36,233 nt of DNA from Desulfobacteraceae bacterium (GTDB lineage Bacteria; Desulfobacterota; Desulfobacteria; Desulfobacterales; JAABSP01), in NCBI GenBank assembly GCA_011390345.1, contig JAABSP010000051.1, positions 1-36,233 of the forward strand, read 5' to 3'. The translations under genes and the position numbers were made by a program. A model generated the notes under the pieces. It saw only the letters and a list, made by a program, of their open reading frames with translations. It searched no databases and had not been told where the DNA came from. Positions 28,057 through 36,233 of the stretch are shown here, one piece after another; position 1 is the stretch's first letter, and each line of letters begins with the position of its first letter.

Positions 28057-28464
28057 ATGTCCAGTTTGTTCCCTGAAGGCCTGACAGACAAAGAATTTTC
28101 CCTGCTGACCACCTGCTCCAAAGAGGCGGATAGCCTTACGCCCCAGGCGCTTCTGGCGCAGGCCTCCGGCCATCTCGACAAGGTCCGTCACGCCCATGCG
28201 CGGAATGCCTTTGTCAACCGCCGTCTCGCCGAGGCGATGGTGGATGTTTTCAAGACCGTCGTCGCCCAATGGGACGGCCTCCCCGACCCCGCCAAGCCCT
28301 GGCTCAGGGGAATGATCCGGTATTTCGCCCTCTCCACGGACCTGGAAAGCGACCTGACCTCCCCCATCGGGTTCGACGACGATGTGGCCATCATGAACGC
28401 CTGTCTGCGGCTGGCGGGTCTGGACGATCTGTGCCTCGATCCCGAGGATTTCGATGACGTATAG
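28057..28464 (+). CDS. DUF1232/YkvA-like small protein, first gene of the defence-like operon
   Basis: The 135-residue acidic soluble protein has a C-terminal half with IRYFALSTDLESDL and TSPIGFDDDVAIMNACLRL, resembling the YF...D...D...GF.DD...N core of DUF1232/YkvA proteins, although the usual membrane character is missing. The N-terminal half is helical (LTPQALLAQASGHLDKVRHAHARNAFVNRRLAEAM). It overlaps the helicase gene by 11 nt (ATGACGTATAG), implying translational coupling. A DUF1232-like partner of a SNF2/methylase pair is the inferred role; its function is unknown. Assignment to the family is by pattern only. Confidence 0.6.
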   Translation: MSSLFPEGLTDKEFSLLTTCSKEADSLTPQALLAQASGHLDKVRHAHARNAFVNRRLAEAMVDVFKTVVAQWDGLPDPAKPWLRGMIRYFALSTDLESDLTSPIGFDDDVAIMNACLRLAGLDDLCLDPEDFDDV

Positions 28465-31400
28465 ATGCGACGCCCCGCCGACGCCCGGGGTCCGGGTCCT
28501 GTGCCGGGACGCCGAGTGGATGATCACCCGGGTGGACGCCTTCGAGGAGGCCCGGGATTTTGCGGTCCATTGCGTGGGCGTGGACGATCTGGTCCGGGGG
28601 CATCCCGCGGTGTTTTTGACGCCGCTGGACCACATCGATCCGGTCGATCCGGCCAAGACCCGCCTTATCAAGGACGAATCCAACGGATACAAGCTCTCCA
28701 AGCTCTTTCTCGAGGCTCAGTTGCGGCAGGTCCCGGCCACGGGGACCGAACCGGATTTCGACGGCATGGGGGTCTTCCGGCGGATGCGGTTCCAGGAGGA
28801 GACGGTGCGGCGGGCCCTGACCCAGTTGCGGCCCCGGCTGCTGCTGGCCGACGCCGTGGGGCTGGGCAAGACCATCCAGGTGGGGATGATCCTTACCGAG
28901 TTGATGCGGCGGGAGCGGGCCGACCGGATTCTGGTGCTGGCCAAAAAATCGATGCTGACCCAGTTCCAGGCGGAACTCTGGAACCGCTTCAACATCCCGC
29001 TGGTGCGCCTCGACTCGGCCGGCATCGCCCGGGTGAGGCTCCGCATCCCCGGCAACAAAAACCCCTTCGAGGTCTATCACCGGGTCATCGTCAGCATCGA
29101 CACCCTGAAGAACGTGGCCCGGTACGAGCATTTCCTGAAAGACACCCGCTGGGACTTGGTGGTCATCGACGAGGCCCACAACGTGGCCGGCGCGTCCATC
29201 CCCGAACGCCACCTGAGTTACCGCCTGGCCCGGCTCCTGTCCCGGCGGACGGACAGCATGCTCCTGACCACGGCCACGCCCCACAACGGAAAGAAAGAGA
29301 CCTTCGGCCGGCTGATCTCGCTCCTCGACCCGTCGGCCATCCCCGATCCCCGGTTCCGGGAATACTGCGCGGACGACATCAAGGATTTTTTCCTCATGCG
29401 CTTCAAGGAGGACATCCGCGACGACGCCTCCGGCATGCTGGCCGACCGGCGGGTGATCCCGCCGGCCCGAACCACGGCCGACGCCACGCCGGCCGAAGAG
29501 AGGGTGTACGGCGTGCTGGCCCATATGCGCGAGGCCCTGAAAGACGAAGACCTGGAAGCCCGGACCGAGGGGAAGAAACACCGGCACACGGCGTTGCTCC
29601 AGTATGGGTTTTACAAGCTGTTTTTGTCCAGCCCCGACGCCTGTTCCGGCGCGGTGCGCGCTCGGCTGGAGAAACTGGATCGGGAACCCGCCAGCGGGAT
29701 CGAACGGGACCTGCTGGGCCGATTGGCGGCCGCGCTGAAAAAGTTGACCCTCCCGGATTCGGCCCGGTATCGGATCTTCAAGGACCAGTTGCACGAGATG
29801 GGGTGGGACGGCGGTTCGGACAGCTCACGGGTGCTGGTCTTCACCGAATACCGGCGGACCCAGGACGCGCTGGCCAGGGCGTTGGCCAAAGATTTCAAGA
29901 TCCGCCACAGCGACAAGTTCGAAGACCAGGCCCGGCAGGCCATCGCCGTGCTCCACGGATCGACGCCGGACATCCATTTGATGGGGACTGTGGAGGCCTT
30001 TGCCACGGGATCGTCGCCCCTGCGGATCATGATCGCCACCGACGTGGCCTCCGAGGGCATCAACCTCCACCACGAATGCCGCCACATCATCCATTACGAC
30101 CTGCCCTGGTCCATCATCACCCTGATCCAAAGGAACGGGCGCATCGACCGGCTCGGGCAGGAGAAAAACCCCATCCTCCGGTATCTCCTGGTCAACACGG
30201 AACAGGGGCTGCTCAAAGGCGACGGCGTCATCTTCAACCGGCTCATCGAAAAGGTGGAGGAGATCAACCGGCTCCGAAAATCCGGGGAGAGCGTCCTGCA
30301 ACTCTATGATCCGGAGGCGGAAGCGGCCTACGTCGCCCGCTGGGGCATCCTCGGGGGCGACGCGGATGTCCTGGAAAAACCCTGGACCGGGGAAACCGAT
30401 CCCAACGGAATGGAGGCCGGCGACCTGGAGACACTCTTGTCGGACGCCGCCCAGACCGGACACGACGATTTCATGGCCTTTTTGATGGGCGAAGCGGAAG
30501 GCGGCCCGGACCCCGCGGAACCGCCCCCGGAAGCGGAGATCGAGGATGCCGGCCGCCTTCGCCTGTTTTCGGACCGCGCGTTTCTCCAGGTCGGATACCA
30601 ATTCCTGCGGGAGCGAAACCCGGATTACCTGCCCCTGGAAGAGACCGAGGGAATGGCCATTCTCACCGCCCCCGAGGATCTGCAGCGGCGATTGGGCAAA
30701 TCCGGGTCGGGCCACGGCGTGGTCTTCGGGGCCACGGCCATCCCCATGGAATCCTGGCCCAAACACGATCAGTTCCGCCTGACGGAGGACCCGGAGCGGG
30801 TGGAGATGGCCATCAAGGCCGCGCGGCACCATTCGGGCTACTGGTCCGGCGAGCTGCTCTGCAACGAGCAGCACCCCATCCTCAAATGGCTGACGGAGCG
30901 GCTGCTGATGACGGTGGACCGGGGCCAGGCCCCCATCATCGTTTCGCCCCACTTGCAGGCCGGGGAACTCTGCTTCTGCTTTATCGGGCAGGTCAGTTCC
31001 AAAAGCGGCGCGCCCCTCATCGTGGCGGAACACGCCCTCTCCTTTTTCAAGGACGGCGACGGGGAGCCCCGGACCCGGCCCCTCAAGCCGGTGATGGACG
31101 CCGTCCGGTTCGATTCGTTGACCAACACCGGAGCCGAGCCCAACATCCTGGCGGCCGAGCCCCTGCTCCACGCGGCCGTCCGGGCGAGCCTCGACTATAT
31201 GGACGGGCTCAAGACCGCCCGGGAAAAAGAGTTGATCCCGCTGCTCCGCAAGGAAGAGCGGCGGCTGAAAAAGTGGAAGGACCGGCGGGAGGAGATCCTC
31301 CGGAAGCGGATGGCGGAGCTGGGCGAAAACTCGCCCCAAGCCAAGCGGATTAAAACAGAACTGGAAGAAATCGCGGATTATCTGCGGGACCGGCAAAAAC

Positions 31401-31477
31401 ACTGGCGGGATGCCCATTTCCAGGCGGCTAACTATCCGGCCACGCGGCTGATCCTCGTTATCCAGGGGGAGGCGTAG
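28454..31477 (+). CDS. drmD: SNF2/HepA-family helicase, likely DISARM DrmD
   Basis: The 1007-residue protein has a DEXH helicase core. Walker A is DAVGLGKT (Lys139), the DEAH box is VVIDEAHN (239-242), TATPHNG is motif III, and LVFTEYRRTQDA leads into the C-lobe. IATDVASEGINLHHE and LIQRNGRIDRLGQ (about 556-567) are motifs V and VI. The unusual DAVGLGKT replaces the common DEVGLGKT. A long C-terminal part ends in a charged coiled-coil (about 900-980, KELIPLLRKEERRLKKWKDRREE). It fits the SNF2-like DrmD of class 1 DISARM, which is followed by the methylase drmMI, as here. A HepA-like standalone helicase is the alternative. The start ATG overlaps the upstream stop; the methylase begins 1 nt after it ends. 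Confidence 0.75.
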   Translation: MTYRCDAPPTPGVRVLCRDAEWMITRVDAFEEARDFAVHCVGVDDLVRGHPAVFLTPLDHIDPVDPAKTRLIKDESNGYKLSKLFLEAQLRQVPATGTEPDFDGMGVFRRMRFQEETVRRALTQLRPRLLLADAVGLGKTIQVGMILTELMRRERADRILVLAKKSMLTQFQAELWNRFNIPLVRLDSAGIARVRLRIPGNKNPFEVYHRVIVSIDTLKNVARYEHFLKDTRWDLVVIDEAHNVAGASIPERHLSYRLARLLSRRTDSMLLTTATPHNGKKETFGRLISLLDPSAIPDPRFREYCADDIKDFFLMRFKEDIRDDASGMLADRRVIPPARTTADATPAEERVYGVLAHMREALKDEDLEARTEGKKHRHTALLQYGFYKLFLSSPDACSGAVRARLEKLDREPASGIERDLLGRLAAALKKLTLPDSARYRIFKDQLHEMGWDGGSDSSRVLVFTEYRRTQDALARALAKDFKIRHSDKFEDQARQAIAVLHGSTPDIHLMGTVEAFATGSSPLRIMIATDVASEGINLHHECRHIIHYDLPWSIITLIQRNGRIDRLGQEKNPILRYLLVNTEQGLLKGDGVIFNRLIEKVEEINRLRKSGESVLQLYDPEAEAAYVARWGILGGDADVLEKPWTGETDPNGMEAGDLETLLSDAAQTGHDDFMAFLMGEAEGGPDPAEPPPEAEIEDAGRLRLFSDRAFLQVGYQFLRERNPDYLPLEETEGMAILTAPEDLQRRLGKSGSGHGVVFGATAIPMESWPKHDQFRLTEDPERVEMAIKAARHHSGYWSGELLCNEQHPILKWLTERLLMTVDRGQAPIIVSPHLQAGELCFCFIGQVSSKSGAPLIVAEHALSFFKDGDGEPRTRPLKPVMDAVRFDSLTNTGAEPNILAAEPLLHAAVRASLDYMDGLKTAREKELIPLLRKEERRLKKWKDRREEILRKRMAELGENSPQAKRIKTELEEIADYLRDRQKHWRDAHFQAANYPATRLILVIQGEA

Positions 31478-31478
31478 G

Positions 31479-34400
31479 ATGTCCCTGGACCCCAGCATCG
31501 AAAACGTCGGCGAATACTACAGCTCCCACTATCTGGCAACGACCTTTTCAAACGATGTGAAAGAGCTGATCACCGGCTGGCGCCGGCAGGGGGCCGACGC
31601 GGTTCCCCGTCGCGTTCAGCAGCTTTCCCGGCGCTATTTCGGGGCCAAGGCCCAGGCCCTGGAAGAGGACGCGCCGGCCGACCGGTGGCGGGCCGGGGAC
31701 GACCTGTCCGCGTGGCACAGCCACCTGCTGGAGCACCTGGGGTACACGGAGCGGAACCCGGTGGACATCCCGGTGGAGGGCGCGAAGACATATGTGCCCG
31801 CCGCGGCCCGGATCCACCGGTACAGCCGGCCGTGGCTGCTGATCTGCGAAACGGTCTTCTGTCTGCCCGACGCCAGCCTGAAGGACGGCATGGCCGCGGA
31901 AGATCCCCTGGAGATGGAACCCTTGCCGGACCAGTTGGCGGACCGGGAACACCCCCTTTGCGAGGGCGCGTGGGGACGGCTGATCCAGCGGCTCTTCATC
32001 GAGGAGGACGCGCCCCGCTGGGTGATGTTTCTGGCCGGCAGCCAGGTCCTGCTCCTGGACAAGCACACCTTTGCCCAGGGCCGCTGGCTCGCCTTCGACC
32101 TGGACGACGCCTACGGCCGCGGCGACCGGACCGCGTTCGACCATGCGGCCGCTTTTTTGAGCGCCGAAACCCTCTGCCCGGACGGCGAATCCGGCGACGC
32201 CATCCACGACCGGCTCGAAAAGCAGAGCCACCGGTTCGCCCACGGGGTGACGGAAAACCTGCAAGCGGCGGTGCGGGAGGCCATTCATGCGCTGGCCCGG
32301 GAATGGGTCGAAGACCGGCGGCGGCGGAACCGGTCCTTCACCCGCCGGATGGAAAACGAGCTGCTGCCCGACGGGTCCGACGGGATCACGGCGGAACACC
32401 TCAAGCACGAGGCCCTGATCTTCGTTTACCGGCTCCTGTTCTGTTTCTACGCGGAGGCCCGGGGCGGGGAACTGGGCATCCTGCCCATCACCGACGACCT
32501 GTACCGGCTGGGCTACAGCCTGGAATCCCTCCGGGACCTGGAGCAGGTCCCGCTCACGGCCGTCACCGAAGCGGGGAACTATTTCCATCGCCACCTGACC
32601 CTTCTTTTCGACGCCATCCACCAGGGGGTCAACCTCGACAACCGGAAGCCGGCGCCGCCGCCCAATCCGGTGGTCCAGAGAATGCTGTTTCCCGACCGGG
32701 ACCCGGAACCGGCCGTCCAGATGACGATGTTCGATGCGGAGGCCGCCGCGGTCGCGGAGCGCATCCGCAAGGCGTTCACCATCCGGCCCCTGACGGCCAC
32801 CCTTTTCGAGCCGTCCGCCACCCCGCTGCTCAACAACGCCCGGTTGACGAACCGGTGCCTCCAGGCGGTGATCCGCCACCTCTCCCTGAGCCGGGATGAA
32901 TCCAGAAAGTCCATCGGACGGGTCAACTACGCGGAACTGGGCATCCACCAGCTCGGGGCGGTTTATGAGGGGCTGTTGTCCTACAAGGGCATGTTCGCCG
33001 TAGAAGACCTGATCCAGGTGAAAGCGCCCCGGGGGACCTTTGGGGACAAGAACACGCCCACCTGGTTCGTGCCGGCGTACCGGATCGATGCATTCCGGGA
33101 TGGAAAGAACCGGAACATCGTCGAGCGGCTGGAAGACGGAAAGCCGCGGATCTACAAGAAGGGCGAGTTCATCCTCCACCTGTCCGGCATCGACCGGGAG
33201 CAGAGCGCCTCCTATTATACGCCCCTGCCGCTGACCCAGTGTACGGTGGCGGAATCGCTGCGGGAACTGCTGAAGGATGTCGGGCCGGCGGACGCCGACC
33301 GGATTCTGGAAATGAAGATCTGCGAGCTGGCCATGGGCAGCGGCGCCTTTTTGAACGAGGCGGCTGAACAACTGGCCCGGCGATACCTGGAACTGAAACA
33401 GAAGGGGACCGGCGAGACCATCGAGCCGGGTCGATTTTTGGATGAACTGCGGCGGGTCAAGCACTACATCATCACCCGGAACATCTACGGGGTGGACCTG
33501 GAGCCCAACGCGGTGGAGCTGGGGGCCTTGTCGCTGTGGCTGGGCAGCATCCATAAGCTGGGGGCGGACGCGGGCGACTATGGCGAGCCGGACCGGCGGC
33601 GGGCCGGGGCCACGCCCTGGTTCGGGCTGCGGCTCCGGTGCGGCAACAGCCTCATCGGGGCGCGGCGGGCGGTGTGGAAGAAGGATCATCTGCTCAAGGG
33701 CCGGCATTGCGGCGCAAAGGGCAAGACGCCGCGGCAGCTCAAGCCGGGCGAGGCCCGGGAAAAGGACGAGATCTACCATTTTCTGGTCTTTGACGAGGAG
33801 ATGGCCCCGGCGGCCGGGGACCGGCTCATGCGCCGGTTCCATCCGGATGCGTGCGAGGCGGCCAGGGGATGGCGCGCGGCCCAGGTCAGGAAGATATGGG
33901 ATGGGGAGGCGGTGGCCGAAGCCTTGGAGATCTGCGACCGGATCGATTGGCATTGGGCGCAATATTCGTCGGAGCGGGTCCGGGCCCTGGAAAAGACGGC
34001 CTGCACGGCGACGGTCTGGCCGGTGGCGGCGGAGAGCGCCGAAGCGGTGAAGGCGGGGCCGACGTTGGAACGGCAGGAGGCGATCAAGGCGCGGCTGGAG
34101 TCGGCCAGCGGGAGTTTCCAGCGGCTGAAGCTGGTCATGGATGTCTGGTGCGCGTTGTGGTTCTGGCCTCTGGAGGAGATGGAGTGTCTGCCCGACCGGA
34201 AGGCGTTTTTGACGGCGGCAGGGTTGTTGTTGGGGACGGAGCCGCCGGCGGCGGAGATGCAGGGCTGGATTTCGGCGAATCTGGGGTTTGAGATCGGCGG
34301 GGTGATCCAGGCGGCGGGCGGGGAGGTGCCGGACGCGGAGGTGATTGGCAATCTGGTGCCGTGGATGTCCGTGAGCCGGGAGATTGCGGAGGAGCAGCGG

Positions 34401-36233
34401 TTCCACCATTGGGAGCTGGTCTTTTCCGAGGTGCTGGGGCCGGCGGCGGAGCGGGGCGGGTTCGATCTGCTGGTGGGGAATCCGCCGTGGATCAAGGCTG
34501 AATGGCAGGATTCGGTGGTCTTAGCAGAAATCGAGCCGTTACTAGGGGTGAAAGAGGCAAGGAGCGCGGAATACAACCGGAAGCGGGAGGACTTGCTACA
34601 AGACCGGGCGGCGCTGCGGTTTTACCGGGAGGCGCACCGGAAAAACGAGGGGGCCTGCACGTTTTTGAATTCCCGGCGGAATTATTCGGAACTGGCGGGG
34701 GTGCAGACGAATCTGTATAAAAATTTCATGGTGAGGGCGTGGATGTTTTTGGGGGAGACGGGGATTGTGGGGTTGCTGCATCCGGATGGGCCGTATGACG
34801 CTGCCAAAGGGGGACGGCTTAGAGAGGAGACTTACAGAAGGTTAAGAGGGCATTTTCAGTTTAGCAATGAGTTGAATTTGTTTAACGATGTGGATCATCA
34901 CGCCCGATTCAGCATCAATGTGTATGGCGCAAAAAGAGTCCAGGTTTGTTTTCGGAACATGGCTAACCTGTTTGCGCCGCACACCTTGGCGGACAGTCTT
35001 TTTCATGATCGTCCGAACGATCCCGTTCCCGGCATTAAAACCACAGAAGGGAAATGGGAAACCCGGCCTCATGTGCATCGGGTTGTGAGAATTACCGAAA
35101 AAGAACTGGAAACTTACGCCTTTCTGCTGGAGGAGAACGGAACGCCGCCTTTACAGACACGGTTGCCGCAAATTCATGCGCAGGCCATTGGGAAAGTGGT
35201 CGAAAAATTGGCGAAAGCGCCAAAAAGGCTTAAGGACTTGGATGGCGAATATTATTCTACTGTGATGTTCGATGAAACATACGCTCAGCGAGTTGGTATT
35301 ACTACCAGACAAAACGACCCAAGCTACCAGCCAGAAACTGTAGAGGATTGGGTGTTGAGCGGGCCGCATTTTTACATTGGCACTCCCCTGATGAAAACTG
35401 CCCGAAGGAATTGCGGCCATAAAAATGCTTATGATGCTATTGATCTTACAAAAATAACTGATGGTTATATACCGAGAGCGATGTATTTGCCGGGAGACAA
35501 TAAAGCCGACAAATCGGCTTTTTACCGCGGTATTGCAGAATGGCCTAAACCCACTCTTCCTGGATTCTGGCCTGTGAACAGTTCGAATGAGGAACAGGCT
35601 TGGGAGATTTTATTTGGAGAGTCCCCGAAGCTATACAGCATCGATCCGAAAAAGCCAGGCTCGAAGACCGCAAGACAGTTTCTCTGCCTTTCCGTGGCGG
35701 AAGGGGAGCCGGCAAAGATTTTGGCGTGGATGGCAGATAATCCTGAAGAAACTGATCCAGTTCGCATTCAAGAACTGGTGGGAGATTTTGATTTCAAACA
35801 GGCGAAACCGGATGAAGTGGATTTTTCGCGTTTGCCTCGGCCCATCACCAGTTATTACAGGCATATAAATCGAAGAAGATTTAGCCCTAACAATGAGCGA
35901 GCCCTGATCTCTGCAATTGTCCCGCCCGGTGCATCCCATATTCACCCTGTTTTGTCTGTATCCCTTCAAAATGATGCCAGCCTGTTGGAATTTCATTCTG
36001 TAACGTGTTCTTTGCCAGCCGATTTTTACATTAAGATTACCGGTAAAACAGATATTTACGGCTCTACACTTGGTTCATTGCCTTTGATCGAAGATGAAAG
36101 GATTCGGTCATCCTTGATAGCCCGCGCCCTCCGCCTCAACTGCCTCACCACCGCCTACGCCGACCTCTGGCGCGAAGTCGCCGGCCCGTGGATCAAATCG
36201 GAAAAATGGACCTCGGACGCCCCGCAACTCACA
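31479..36233 (+). CDS. drmMI: Very large N6-adenine DNA methyltransferase, DrmMI-like, 3'-partial
   Basis: The frame is open from ATG 31479 to the window end, 1585 codons without a stop, so the C-terminus is missing. It carries AdoMet motif I GSGAF (620-624, in CELAMGSGAFLNEAA) and the catalytic NPPW (1001-1004, in LLVGNPPWIKAEW), marking an N6-adenine amino-methylase of the Eco57I/PglX kind with an insertion of about 380 residues between the motifs. The N-terminal part (about 95-115, YVPAAARIH followed by PWLLICETVF) recalls a PD-(D/E)XK layout but lacks the ExK lysine, so a nuclease-dead N-terminus is plausible. The late part ends ALRLNCLTTAYADLWRE. Codon use changes sharply along the gene (C-ending, then G-ending, then AT-rich about 34.8-36.1 kb, then GC-rich again), suggesting a swapped specificity region. 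Confidence 0.8.
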   Translation, partial: MSLDPSIENVGEYYSSHYLATTFSNDVKELITGWRRQGADAVPRRVQQLSRRYFGAKAQALEEDAPADRWRAGDDLSAWHSHLLEHLGYTERNPVDIPVEGAKTYVPAAARIHRYSRPWLLICETVFCLPDASLKDGMAAEDPLEMEPLPDQLADREHPLCEGAWGRLIQRLFIEEDAPRWVMFLAGSQVLLLDKHTFAQGRWLAFDLDDAYGRGDRTAFDHAAAFLSAETLCPDGESGDAIHDRLEKQSHRFAHGVTENLQAAVREAIHALAREWVEDRRRRNRSFTRRMENELLPDGSDGITAEHLKHEALIFVYRLLFCFYAEARGGELGILPITDDLYRLGYSLESLRDLEQVPLTAVTEAGNYFHRHLTLLFDAIHQGVNLDNRKPAPPPNPVVQRMLFPDRDPEPAVQMTMFDAEAAAVAERIRKAFTIRPLTATLFEPSATPLLNNARLTNRCLQAVIRHLSLSRDESRKSIGRVNYAELGIHQLGAVYEGLLSYKGMFAVEDLIQVKAPRGTFGDKNTPTWFVPAYRIDAFRDGKNRNIVERLEDGKPRIYKKGEFILHLSGIDREQSASYYTPLPLTQCTVAESLRELLKDVGPADADRILEMKICELAMGSGAFLNEAAEQLARRYLELKQKGTGETIEPGRFLDELRRVKHYIITRNIYGVDLEPNAVELGALSLWLGSIHKLGADAGDYGEPDRRRAGATPWFGLRLRCGNSLIGARRAVWKKDHLLKGRHCGAKGKTPRQLKPGEAREKDEIYHFLVFDEEMAPAAGDRLMRRFHPDACEAARGWRAAQVRKIWDGEAVAEALEICDRIDWHWAQYSSERVRALEKTACTATVWPVAAESAEAVKAGPTLERQEAIKARLESASGSFQRLKLVMDVWCALWFWPLEEMECLPDRKAFLTAAGLLLGTEPPAAEMQGWISANLGFEIGGVIQAAGGEVPDAEVIGNLVPWMSVSREIAEEQRFHHWELVFSEVLGPAAERGGFDLLVGNPPWIKAEWQDSVVLAEIEPLLGVKEARSAEYNRKREDLLQDRAALRFYREAHRKNEGACTFLNSRRNYSELAGVQTNLYKNFMVRAWMFLGETGIVGLLHPDGPYDAAKGGRLREETYRRLRGHFQFSNELNLFNDVDHHARFSINVYGAKRVQVCFRNMANLFAPHTLADSLFHDRPNDPVPGIKTTEGKWETRPHVHRVVRITEKELETYAFLLEENGTPPLQTRLPQIHAQAIGKVVEKLAKAPKRLKDLDGEYYSTVMFDETYAQRVGITTRQNDPSYQPETVEDWVLSGPHFYIGTPLMKTARRNCGHKNAYDAIDLTKITDGYIPRAMYLPGDNKADKSAFYRGIAEWPKPTLPGFWPVNSSNEEQAWEILFGESPKLYSIDPKKPGSKTARQFLCLSVAEGEPAKILAWMADNPEETDPVRIQELVGDFDFKQAKPDEVDFSRLPRPITSYYRHINRRRFSPNNERALISAIVPPGASHIHPVLSVSLQNDASLLEFHSVTCSLPADFYIKITGKTDIYGSTLGSLPLIEDERIRSSLIARALRLNCLTTAYADLWREVAGPWIKSEKWTSDAPQLT

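Follow-up and report, generated by a model that had tools for sequence, protein, structure and literature searches.

We have found that the last three genes of a 36,233-bp contig from a Desulfobacteraceae bacterium (the complete contig C152 of its genome, G000, here called the window) probably constitute the beginning of an ARMADA Type II operon, whose full order would be ArmS-ArmA-ArmB-[cargo]-ArmC-ArmD; the genome belongs to the same taxonomic order as Desulfamplus. The operon runs off the end of the contig. According to the main text of a recent preprint, ARMADA Type II consists of four genes in a strict order, where ArmA is a BrxHII-like helicase, ArmB a PglX-like methylase, ArmC a YprA-like helicase that is closest to that of Druantia and carries a C-terminal nuclease of the Vsr type, and ArmD a GajB-like UvrD helicase with a RelE-like start (Bell et al. 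2025, PMC12458937). The loci described here differ in two respects: a small DUF1232-like gene, for which we coin the name armS, stands before armA or is fused to it, and variable cargo lies between armB and armC. The genes at the window end are as follows.

28057 to 28464, plus strand: armS, encoding a small DUF1232-like protein of 135 residues that is predicted to be all-helical; overlaps armA by 11 nt
28454 to 31477, plus strand: armA, encoding a SNF2/RapA-like helicase of the BrxHII/DrmD type (1007 residues), identified by Pfam, PADLOC, motifs and ArmA trees
31479 to 36233, plus strand: armB, encoding the first 1585 residues of a PglX/type IIG-like adenine methylase, whose C-terminus is lost at the contig end

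The arrangement agrees exactly with a preliminary description of this DNA, which had noted three co-oriented genes, the first two overlapping by 11 nt and the last two (armA and armB) lying 1 nt apart. The same description's DEAH SNF2-family helicase is confirmed by Pfam matches to SNF2-rel_dom and Helicase_C and by the motifs GLGKT (residue 136), DEAH (239) and QRNGRIDRLGQ (559). Its methylase of more than 1585 residues with GSGAF and NPPW motifs has both motifs, at residues 620 and 1001, and matches Eco57I in Pfam; its length within the window is 1585 residues, with the reading frame open at the contig end. Because homologues occur in the same order in G623, a genome in a single contig, at identities of 60% (small protein), 71% (helicase) and approximately 60% (methylase), the three genes are not chance open reading frames (ORFs).

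The ARMADA assignment corrects a different call, which profile tools invite. Among the PADLOC 2.0.0 matches listed, none belongs to a family named ARMADA; the top match of the helicase is DrmD (263 bits), while the methylase is matched best by a type IIG model (602 bits) and also by DrmMI (169 bits). The preliminary description took the pair for drmD-drmMI of class 1 DISARM, expected drmA, drmB and drmC beyond the window end, and named in advance their absence downstream as evidence against this view. The pair is indeed of a kind common to DISARM, and homologous to that of class 1, but the system differs: relatives with 58-71% identical genes have armC and armD downstream, and the window's own genome contains armC and armD as well. 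No drmA, drmB or drmC was found downstream in the neighbourhoods seen, where ArmC-type and UvrD helicases are encoded instead, both in the relatives and on a second contig of the window's genome, C53. DrmA and DrmC (PLD) do not stand next to the pair in the relatives or on C53, no genome-wide search for DrmC having been made. Moreover, armC encodes one polypeptide where DISARM has a separate DrmA/DrmB pair, and the two MZB/DUF1998 matches of the window's own genome sit in ORFs of 2215 (ArmC) and 966 residues, on the same contigs and of the same lengths as ORFs matching the ArmC helicase, with no separate DrmB-like protein seen. With cargo, armC and armD in the place of drmA, drmB and drmC, class 1 DISARM is largely refuted, and we consider it very improbable that the DISARM genes were simply lost past the contig end. 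An assignment to BREX type 3 or to an Hma-like system, for which the preliminary description had also allowed, is more improbable still. The helicase is matched by BrxHI/BrxHII (174 bits) and HmaA (171 bits) profiles, but these matches are weaker than that to DrmD, which led us to reject this assignment; armC and armD are present instead, and pglZ/brxC-like genes are not among the scanned neighbours, no dedicated genome-wide search having been made for them.

Desulfamplus magnetovallimortis (G037, NZ_LT828541.1, phylum Thermodesulfobacteriota) has a methylase 58% identical to that of the window, encoded on a contig of 665,663 bp, and its genes follow in the order small gene, helicase, methylase, a 141-residue protein, a 908-residue ATPase, a 2228-residue helicase and a 709-residue helicase. 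The 2228-residue protein contains DEAD, Helicase_C and MZB domains and has DruE as its top PADLOC matches, and the 709-residue protein contains a UvrD helicase. Both Desulfamplus and G623 carry the set armS, armA, armB, cargo, armC and armD complete on one contig, and Metabacillus malikii (Bacillota) has the full armS-A-B-C-D set on one contig. Of the 16 loci of the window's phylum with a measured B-C junction, 9 have A-B-C-D together on a single contig, 6 have A-B-C and 1 has B-C-D. E. coli CFSAN061761 shows the A-B-C-D order next to zorA2 and to two genes that we take, from the preprint's description, to be Druantia III. Of 5426 complete E. coli genomes, 518 have a match to the armB-type gene, as do 266 plasmid records; a search of phage records for ArmB gave one fragment only, and a search for related loci with the helicase confirmed none. 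The window's ArmA is 33% identical to an ArmA-type gene of an E. coli plasmid, and its ArmB is 37.6% identical to an E. coli plasmid gene over 92% of the query.

Beyond the window, the operon probably continues on contig C53 of the same genome (locus L050).

C53, 102 to 506: PIN protein
C53, 534 to 746: MqsA-like protein, below the Pfam cut-off
C53, 1435 to 8037: armC, encoding a YprA/DruE-like helicase with an MZB domain
C53, 8122 to 10275: armD, encoding a UvrD helicase

We assign C53 to the window operon because of the gene order in relatives and because its ArmC and ArmD are the only strong matches in this genome, at 57% identity to Desulfamplus over 2222 residues and 63% over 703 residues, respectively; the other matches to ArmC (two) and ArmD (one) are weak, short helicase stretches. 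ArmC of C53 has DEAD, Helicase_C and MZB domains in one chain, with DruE as its best PADLOC matches, while ArmD matches UvrD-helicase in Pfam and has GajB among its PADLOC matches. ARMADA Type II is thus resembled in the order ArmA-ArmB-ArmC-ArmD, in the SNF2/BrxHII-like helicase directly followed by a PglX-like methylase with NPPW and GSGAF, in the DruE-like YprA helicase carrying MZB/DUF1998 in one polypeptide, and in a UvrD helicase that, by eye, can be aligned at its start with E. coli ArmD. The placement rests on this gene content and order; the trees considered below are of ArmA. Several observations weigh against it. The Vsr nuclease of ArmC was not detected by Pfam in a stretch of the window genome's own ArmC or in the E. 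coli C-terminus, nor by a motif pattern (0 of 6), and the RelE-like start of ArmD gave only sub-threshold Gp49/ParE-like matches in Pfam (E 0.02-0.09) and no match against the PDB. In addition, C152 and C53 are not physically joined, so that the operon order in the window genome is read across a contig break; judged from relatives, some 130-150 residues of ArmB are missing at the end of C152, and a search of the same genome with the ArmB C-terminus of a relative found no match.

We present evidence that ArmS, by profile comparison, is a diverged DUF1232-like protein. The preliminary description had called it DUF1232/YkvA-like, which holds at the level of profiles (hhalign probability 82-85%, E approximately 1e-5, score 37.4, the highest of 100 column shuffles reaching 16.7), in a comparison that is not fully independent as the DUF1232 proteins were picked by the ArmS profile. 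It does not hold at the gathering cut-off of PF06803, which none of five ArmS members reaches; Pfam gave no DUF1232 match for the window's ArmS, and a PF06803 search of the whole window genome gave no match. When a two-member ArmS profile was run against 395 genomes it returned, besides the window's own genome, three strong matches, all from the same genus, together with four weak matches at E 9e-4 to 0.01. Of the weak matches three are DUF1232-like, and Pfam confirms two of these. ArmS and DUF1232 align without gaps over 48 columns, including Y, D, D and G[YF].DD, but where the DUF1232 proteins examined have a P-x-D-x-I-x-D stretch ArmS has an acidic one, and ArmS is set apart by falling below the Pfam threshold and by being coupled or fused to ArmA. 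Eleven ArmS members have in common Y89, D95, D99, S102 and G105-F-D-D-D109. The AlphaFold2 model of ArmS is confident and all-helical (predicted local distance difference test score, pLDDT, 88; predicted template modelling score, pTM, 0.85), with D95 to G105 placed between helices 4 and 5 in the region of lowest confidence. Neither the PDB nor BFVD folds gave anything at E of at most 0.001, and the best Z of 7.1 (VIA-align) is within the range given for helical bundles, so that ArmS has no clear solved relative in these sets.

ArmS was seen in 10 ArmA loci, in 9 of which it is encoded directly before ArmA or is fused to it, and as a decayed remnant in a further genome. These loci belong to four phyla (Thermodesulfobacteriota, a planctomycete, Bacillota and Actinomycetota), with armS directly before armA in Thermodesulfobacteriota, the planctomycete and a Bacillota strain. 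The two genes overlap by 8 or 11 nt in four loci (the window, G623, Desulfamplus and the planctomycete, Erken), if ATG is taken as the start, and in two genomes, G222 (L059) and an uncultured Desulfobacteraceae (Umea, L068), ArmS forms the in-frame N-terminal part of a fusion with ArmA. Since ArmS is coupled or fused to ArmA, its most likely role is that of a small adaptor or regulatory subunit dedicated to ArmA. Eight of the 10 loci also showed ArmB. The remnant (L020, G001:C312, 1-1367, in a genome of the same family) comprises 55 residues at 80% identity at a contig end, together with an ArmB start that has large in-frame internal deletions, either through decay or as an assembly artefact.

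The alternative is that ArmS plays no part in ARMADA and is simply a neighbour, such as a regulator or passenger gene. We think this unlikely, given the in-frame fusions in two related genomes, the overlaps of 8-11 nt in four diverged loci and the position immediately ahead of armA in three of the four phyla; it would, however, account for several observations that count against a dedicated subunit. Both fusions lie in one ArmA clade and may represent one event; G196 and G426, from this same clade, have frames that are broken when compared with the fusion, possibly an assembly error, and both were left out of the fusion count. The sequences of G222 and G426 stop inside armA, and neither genome has an ArmB match; two more ArmS-like genes (L072, 9902-10303, and L073, 3746-4132) likewise occur in genomes without an ArmB match. 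In Pseudonocardia terrae (Actinomycetota), where the order is A-B-insert-C-D, armS is convergent and follows armD. Above all, most ARMADA loci examined have no ArmS. A survey that started from ArmB found matches in 26 of 389 genomes of the window's class, of which 15 were assessable for ArmS (16 loci, as G682 has two); G597, G525, G532, G047, G026, G029 and G041 had no armA start in the stretch examined, and G572, G679, G721 and G665 were left out. ArmS is absent from 12 of the 16 loci, and the ArmS profile was unmatched in 13 plasmid loci and one chromosomal locus of E. coli; in E. coli CFSAN061761 only 223 bp separate armA from the helicase gene upstream. A tblastn search found no ArmS in plasmids, and none was found in viral contigs. 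G584, with an armA 54% identical, has no ArmS, though the planctomycete has one at 56%.

The presence of ArmS follows relatedness: it was found in all four class loci with an ArmB identity of at least 58% (the window, G623, Desulfamplus and Umea) and in none of the 12 below that value (Fisher p 5e-4, calculated over loci that are not independent). The first of two ArmA trees places seven loci with ArmS in a single group (support 100/99); the helicase of G371 forms a very long branch in this tree and probably does not represent ArmA. The second tree, built by a quicker method, has more rows but is without G371, EcoliRCS32, Klebsiella, G029, Streptomyces and Microvirga. It groups seven loci, G623 included (SH-like approximate likelihood-ratio test, SH-aLRT, 99), and adds to them the planctomycete, which has ArmS, and G584, which does not; Metabacillus falls elsewhere, and Pseudonocardia forms a long branch of unsure place. 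These seven are a biased sample in that four of them had been found by the ArmS search. G422, with an interrupted armA, was omitted from both trees, although its junctions were counted. We rejected both the view that ArmS is restricted to close relatives of the window, since it is found in Metabacillus, the planctomycete and Pseudonocardia, and the view that it is universal in ARMADA, which conflicts with the class survey, the 13 plasmid loci and the E. coli locus. ArmS is a lineage-biased accessory and not a core ARMADA part, and because most loci examined are without it, it is not needed for ARMADA in general. The preliminary suggestion that the leading gene might be an overlooked subunit or accessory thus stands in that the gene recurs with the helicase and is fused to it in two genomes, but it is missing from most loci; co-occurrence with the helicase, which that description proposed to count, amounts to 4 of the 16 assessable class loci and 0 of the 14 plasmid and E. 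coli loci.

We find, in addition, that in most relatives examined the armB-armC junction harbours a toxin or antiviral module that varies from one locus to another. Counting as an insert anything above 500 bp at a junction, a cut-off chosen after the loci had been seen, we observe B-C inserts in all 16 loci of the window's phylum, whereas A-B has one in 2 of 19 loci and C-D in 1 of 10; over all loci, in the order B-C, A-B and C-D, the figures are 19 of 31, 2 of 36 and 1 of 26. The corresponding Fisher p-values within the phylum (4e-8 and 3e-6) overstate the significance and should be taken loosely, in that loci share ancestry and the cut-off was set post hoc, and a further point against our reading is that B-C inserts occur in only 3 of 15 loci outside the phylum, three enterobacterial loci among the 15 being near-identical copies without an insert. 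Cylindrospermopsis, whose arm genes run C-D-A-B, was excluded from the B-C count. The cargo genes with Pfam matches run co-oriented with the arm genes, and in 8 of 13 measured loci the end of the final cargo gene falls in the interval from 52 nt before armC to 18 nt inside it. Cargo could be assigned in 13 of the 16 phylum loci, the remainder being G578 (one of three genes scanned, no match), G727 and G422; these last two, like the inserts of Haematobacter and Nostoc, were outside the cargo scans. In the window's genome the 1434 bp before armC contain the PIN and MqsA-like proteins listed above. The cargo of the other loci is as follows.

G492: full-length GajA (959 bits) and GajB (843 bits), that is, Gabija
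G570: AbiLi/AbiLii
G525: AbiL-like pair by Pfam (AAA_21 and RloB)
G586: Mokosh-like helicase-PLD protein
G623: PDC-M38A/B (898 and 635 bits)
G455: weaker PDC-M38 matches
G493: HigB and a helix-turn-helix (HTH) protein
G436: homologues of both G493 proteins (HigB and HTH) at 62-63% identity
G347: ParE
G584: Fic
G029: HTH-M78 and PIN
G682: two AAA_21 ATPases
G037 (Desulfamplus): the 141-residue protein, HEPN-looking by eye, and the ATPase, with weak PDC-M28 matches
Pseudonocardia, outside the phylum: HEC-05 (GmrSD_N)

Defence islands accumulate genes of this sort, and it is quite possible, though it is not the reading we favour, that the inserts are random island insertions tolerated at one junction and have no functional link to ARMADA. 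Their rarity outside the phylum (3 of 15) fits that view, as do an ORF resembling an IS200-type transposase, by eye, in the insert of G584 and two antisense ORFs beside the cargo of G029. Random insertion would not, however, readily explain why the same group has almost no inserts at its A-B and C-D junctions, why Pfam-matched cargo genes are co-oriented with the arm genes and end so close to armC, or why cargo types recur (the HigB pair, the AbiL-like pair and the PDC-M38-like proteins, each twice). We consider it most likely, from gene position and content, that the exchangeable armB-armC module is a backup effector. Backup effectors (OLD/TOPRIM, HEPN, PIN and GmrSD) have been proposed for BREX, in work whose main text does not mention ARMADA (Rakesh and Krishnan 2026, PMC12839542). 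The two cases are alike in having OLD/TOPRIM, HEPN, PIN and GmrSD-type modules inside a defence operon; they differ in the core, which in the BREX and BR systems of that study is PglZ/BrxC or DUF499, and in that the inserts found here concentrate at one junction.

From the preprint's mutational data and what is known of the protein families, we infer a scheme in which ArmB would methylate host DNA and so allow self to be told from non-self, ArmA and ArmC would translocate on unprotected phage DNA, and ArmC, through the C-terminal nuclease attributed to it (PMC12458937), would carry out restriction together with ArmD. Judging by gene coupling, fusion and position, ArmS may ride on ArmA as an adaptor or regulatory subunit, and the armB-armC module, presumably co-transcribed with ARMADA, could fire when the core is blocked or overrun. 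Taken furthest, ARMADA Type II would here be a five-subunit machine with a DUF1232-like protein integral to the ArmA motor, plus a docking site between armB and armC that exchanges complete secondary defences (Gabija, AbiL, Mokosh-like proteins, toxin-antitoxin pairs), whose transcription would provide a fallback against phages able to disable the core. We offer this combined reading tentatively, as possible but on the doubtful side, and slightly less probable because the fusions may share a single origin.

ArmS and the cargo junction appear to be undescribed features. The main text of the ARMADA preprint (its supplements being outside this scope) mentions neither DUF1232/YkvA, PIN domains or HEPN nor accessory or inserted genes (PMC12458937), and among the titles and listings searched, under the same limit, there was no DUF1232 protein in a defence operon and no report of the ARMADA junction, the three papers in which the term DUF1232 occurs being all on plant RING genes. 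Thus, while the ARMADA core is known and backup effectors inside defence operons have already been proposed for BREX, the additions of ArmS and the junction look new. DUF1232, a domain of unknown function, gains a testable role as the partner of a defence helicase, and an ARMADA core with a position-specific cargo junction makes the backup-effector idea from BREX testable, as a similar core is combined with many natural cargo swaps at one insertion point.

We also note several features of individual loci. In G029 (L016, 10508-11363) the two antisense ORFs (148 and 139 residues) lie between armB and the co-oriented cargo. G584 (L109, L110) carries an insert of 1.8 kb at A-B as well as one of 2.2 kb at B-C, and the transposase-like ORF of the latter stands beside the Fic gene. 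ORFs of about 150 residues are found between armA and armB in the planctomycete (L070, 5582-6034) and in G196 (L060, 319-795). In the single-contig genome G422 approximately 1.3 kb (L028/L029, G422:C1, about 3058393-3059672) interrupt armA between residues 379 and 390; this may be an inserted element, and the locus may be inactive. On a Tsukamurella plasmid (NZ_LR134452.1; L126, 5231-26107) a DISARM-like pair of a helicase-related and a DUF1998 gene stands directly upstream of a complete ARMADA operon whose armC appears to be split into two genes, placing two related YprA systems side by side. Lastly, the 13 ORFs scanned in the remainder of the window (1-27746) encode ordinary metabolism and sensing, including an aldehyde ferredoxin oxidoreductase, BCCT and OpuAC transport, 2-oxo acid dehydrogenase subunits and a dCache/PAS hybrid histidine kinase.

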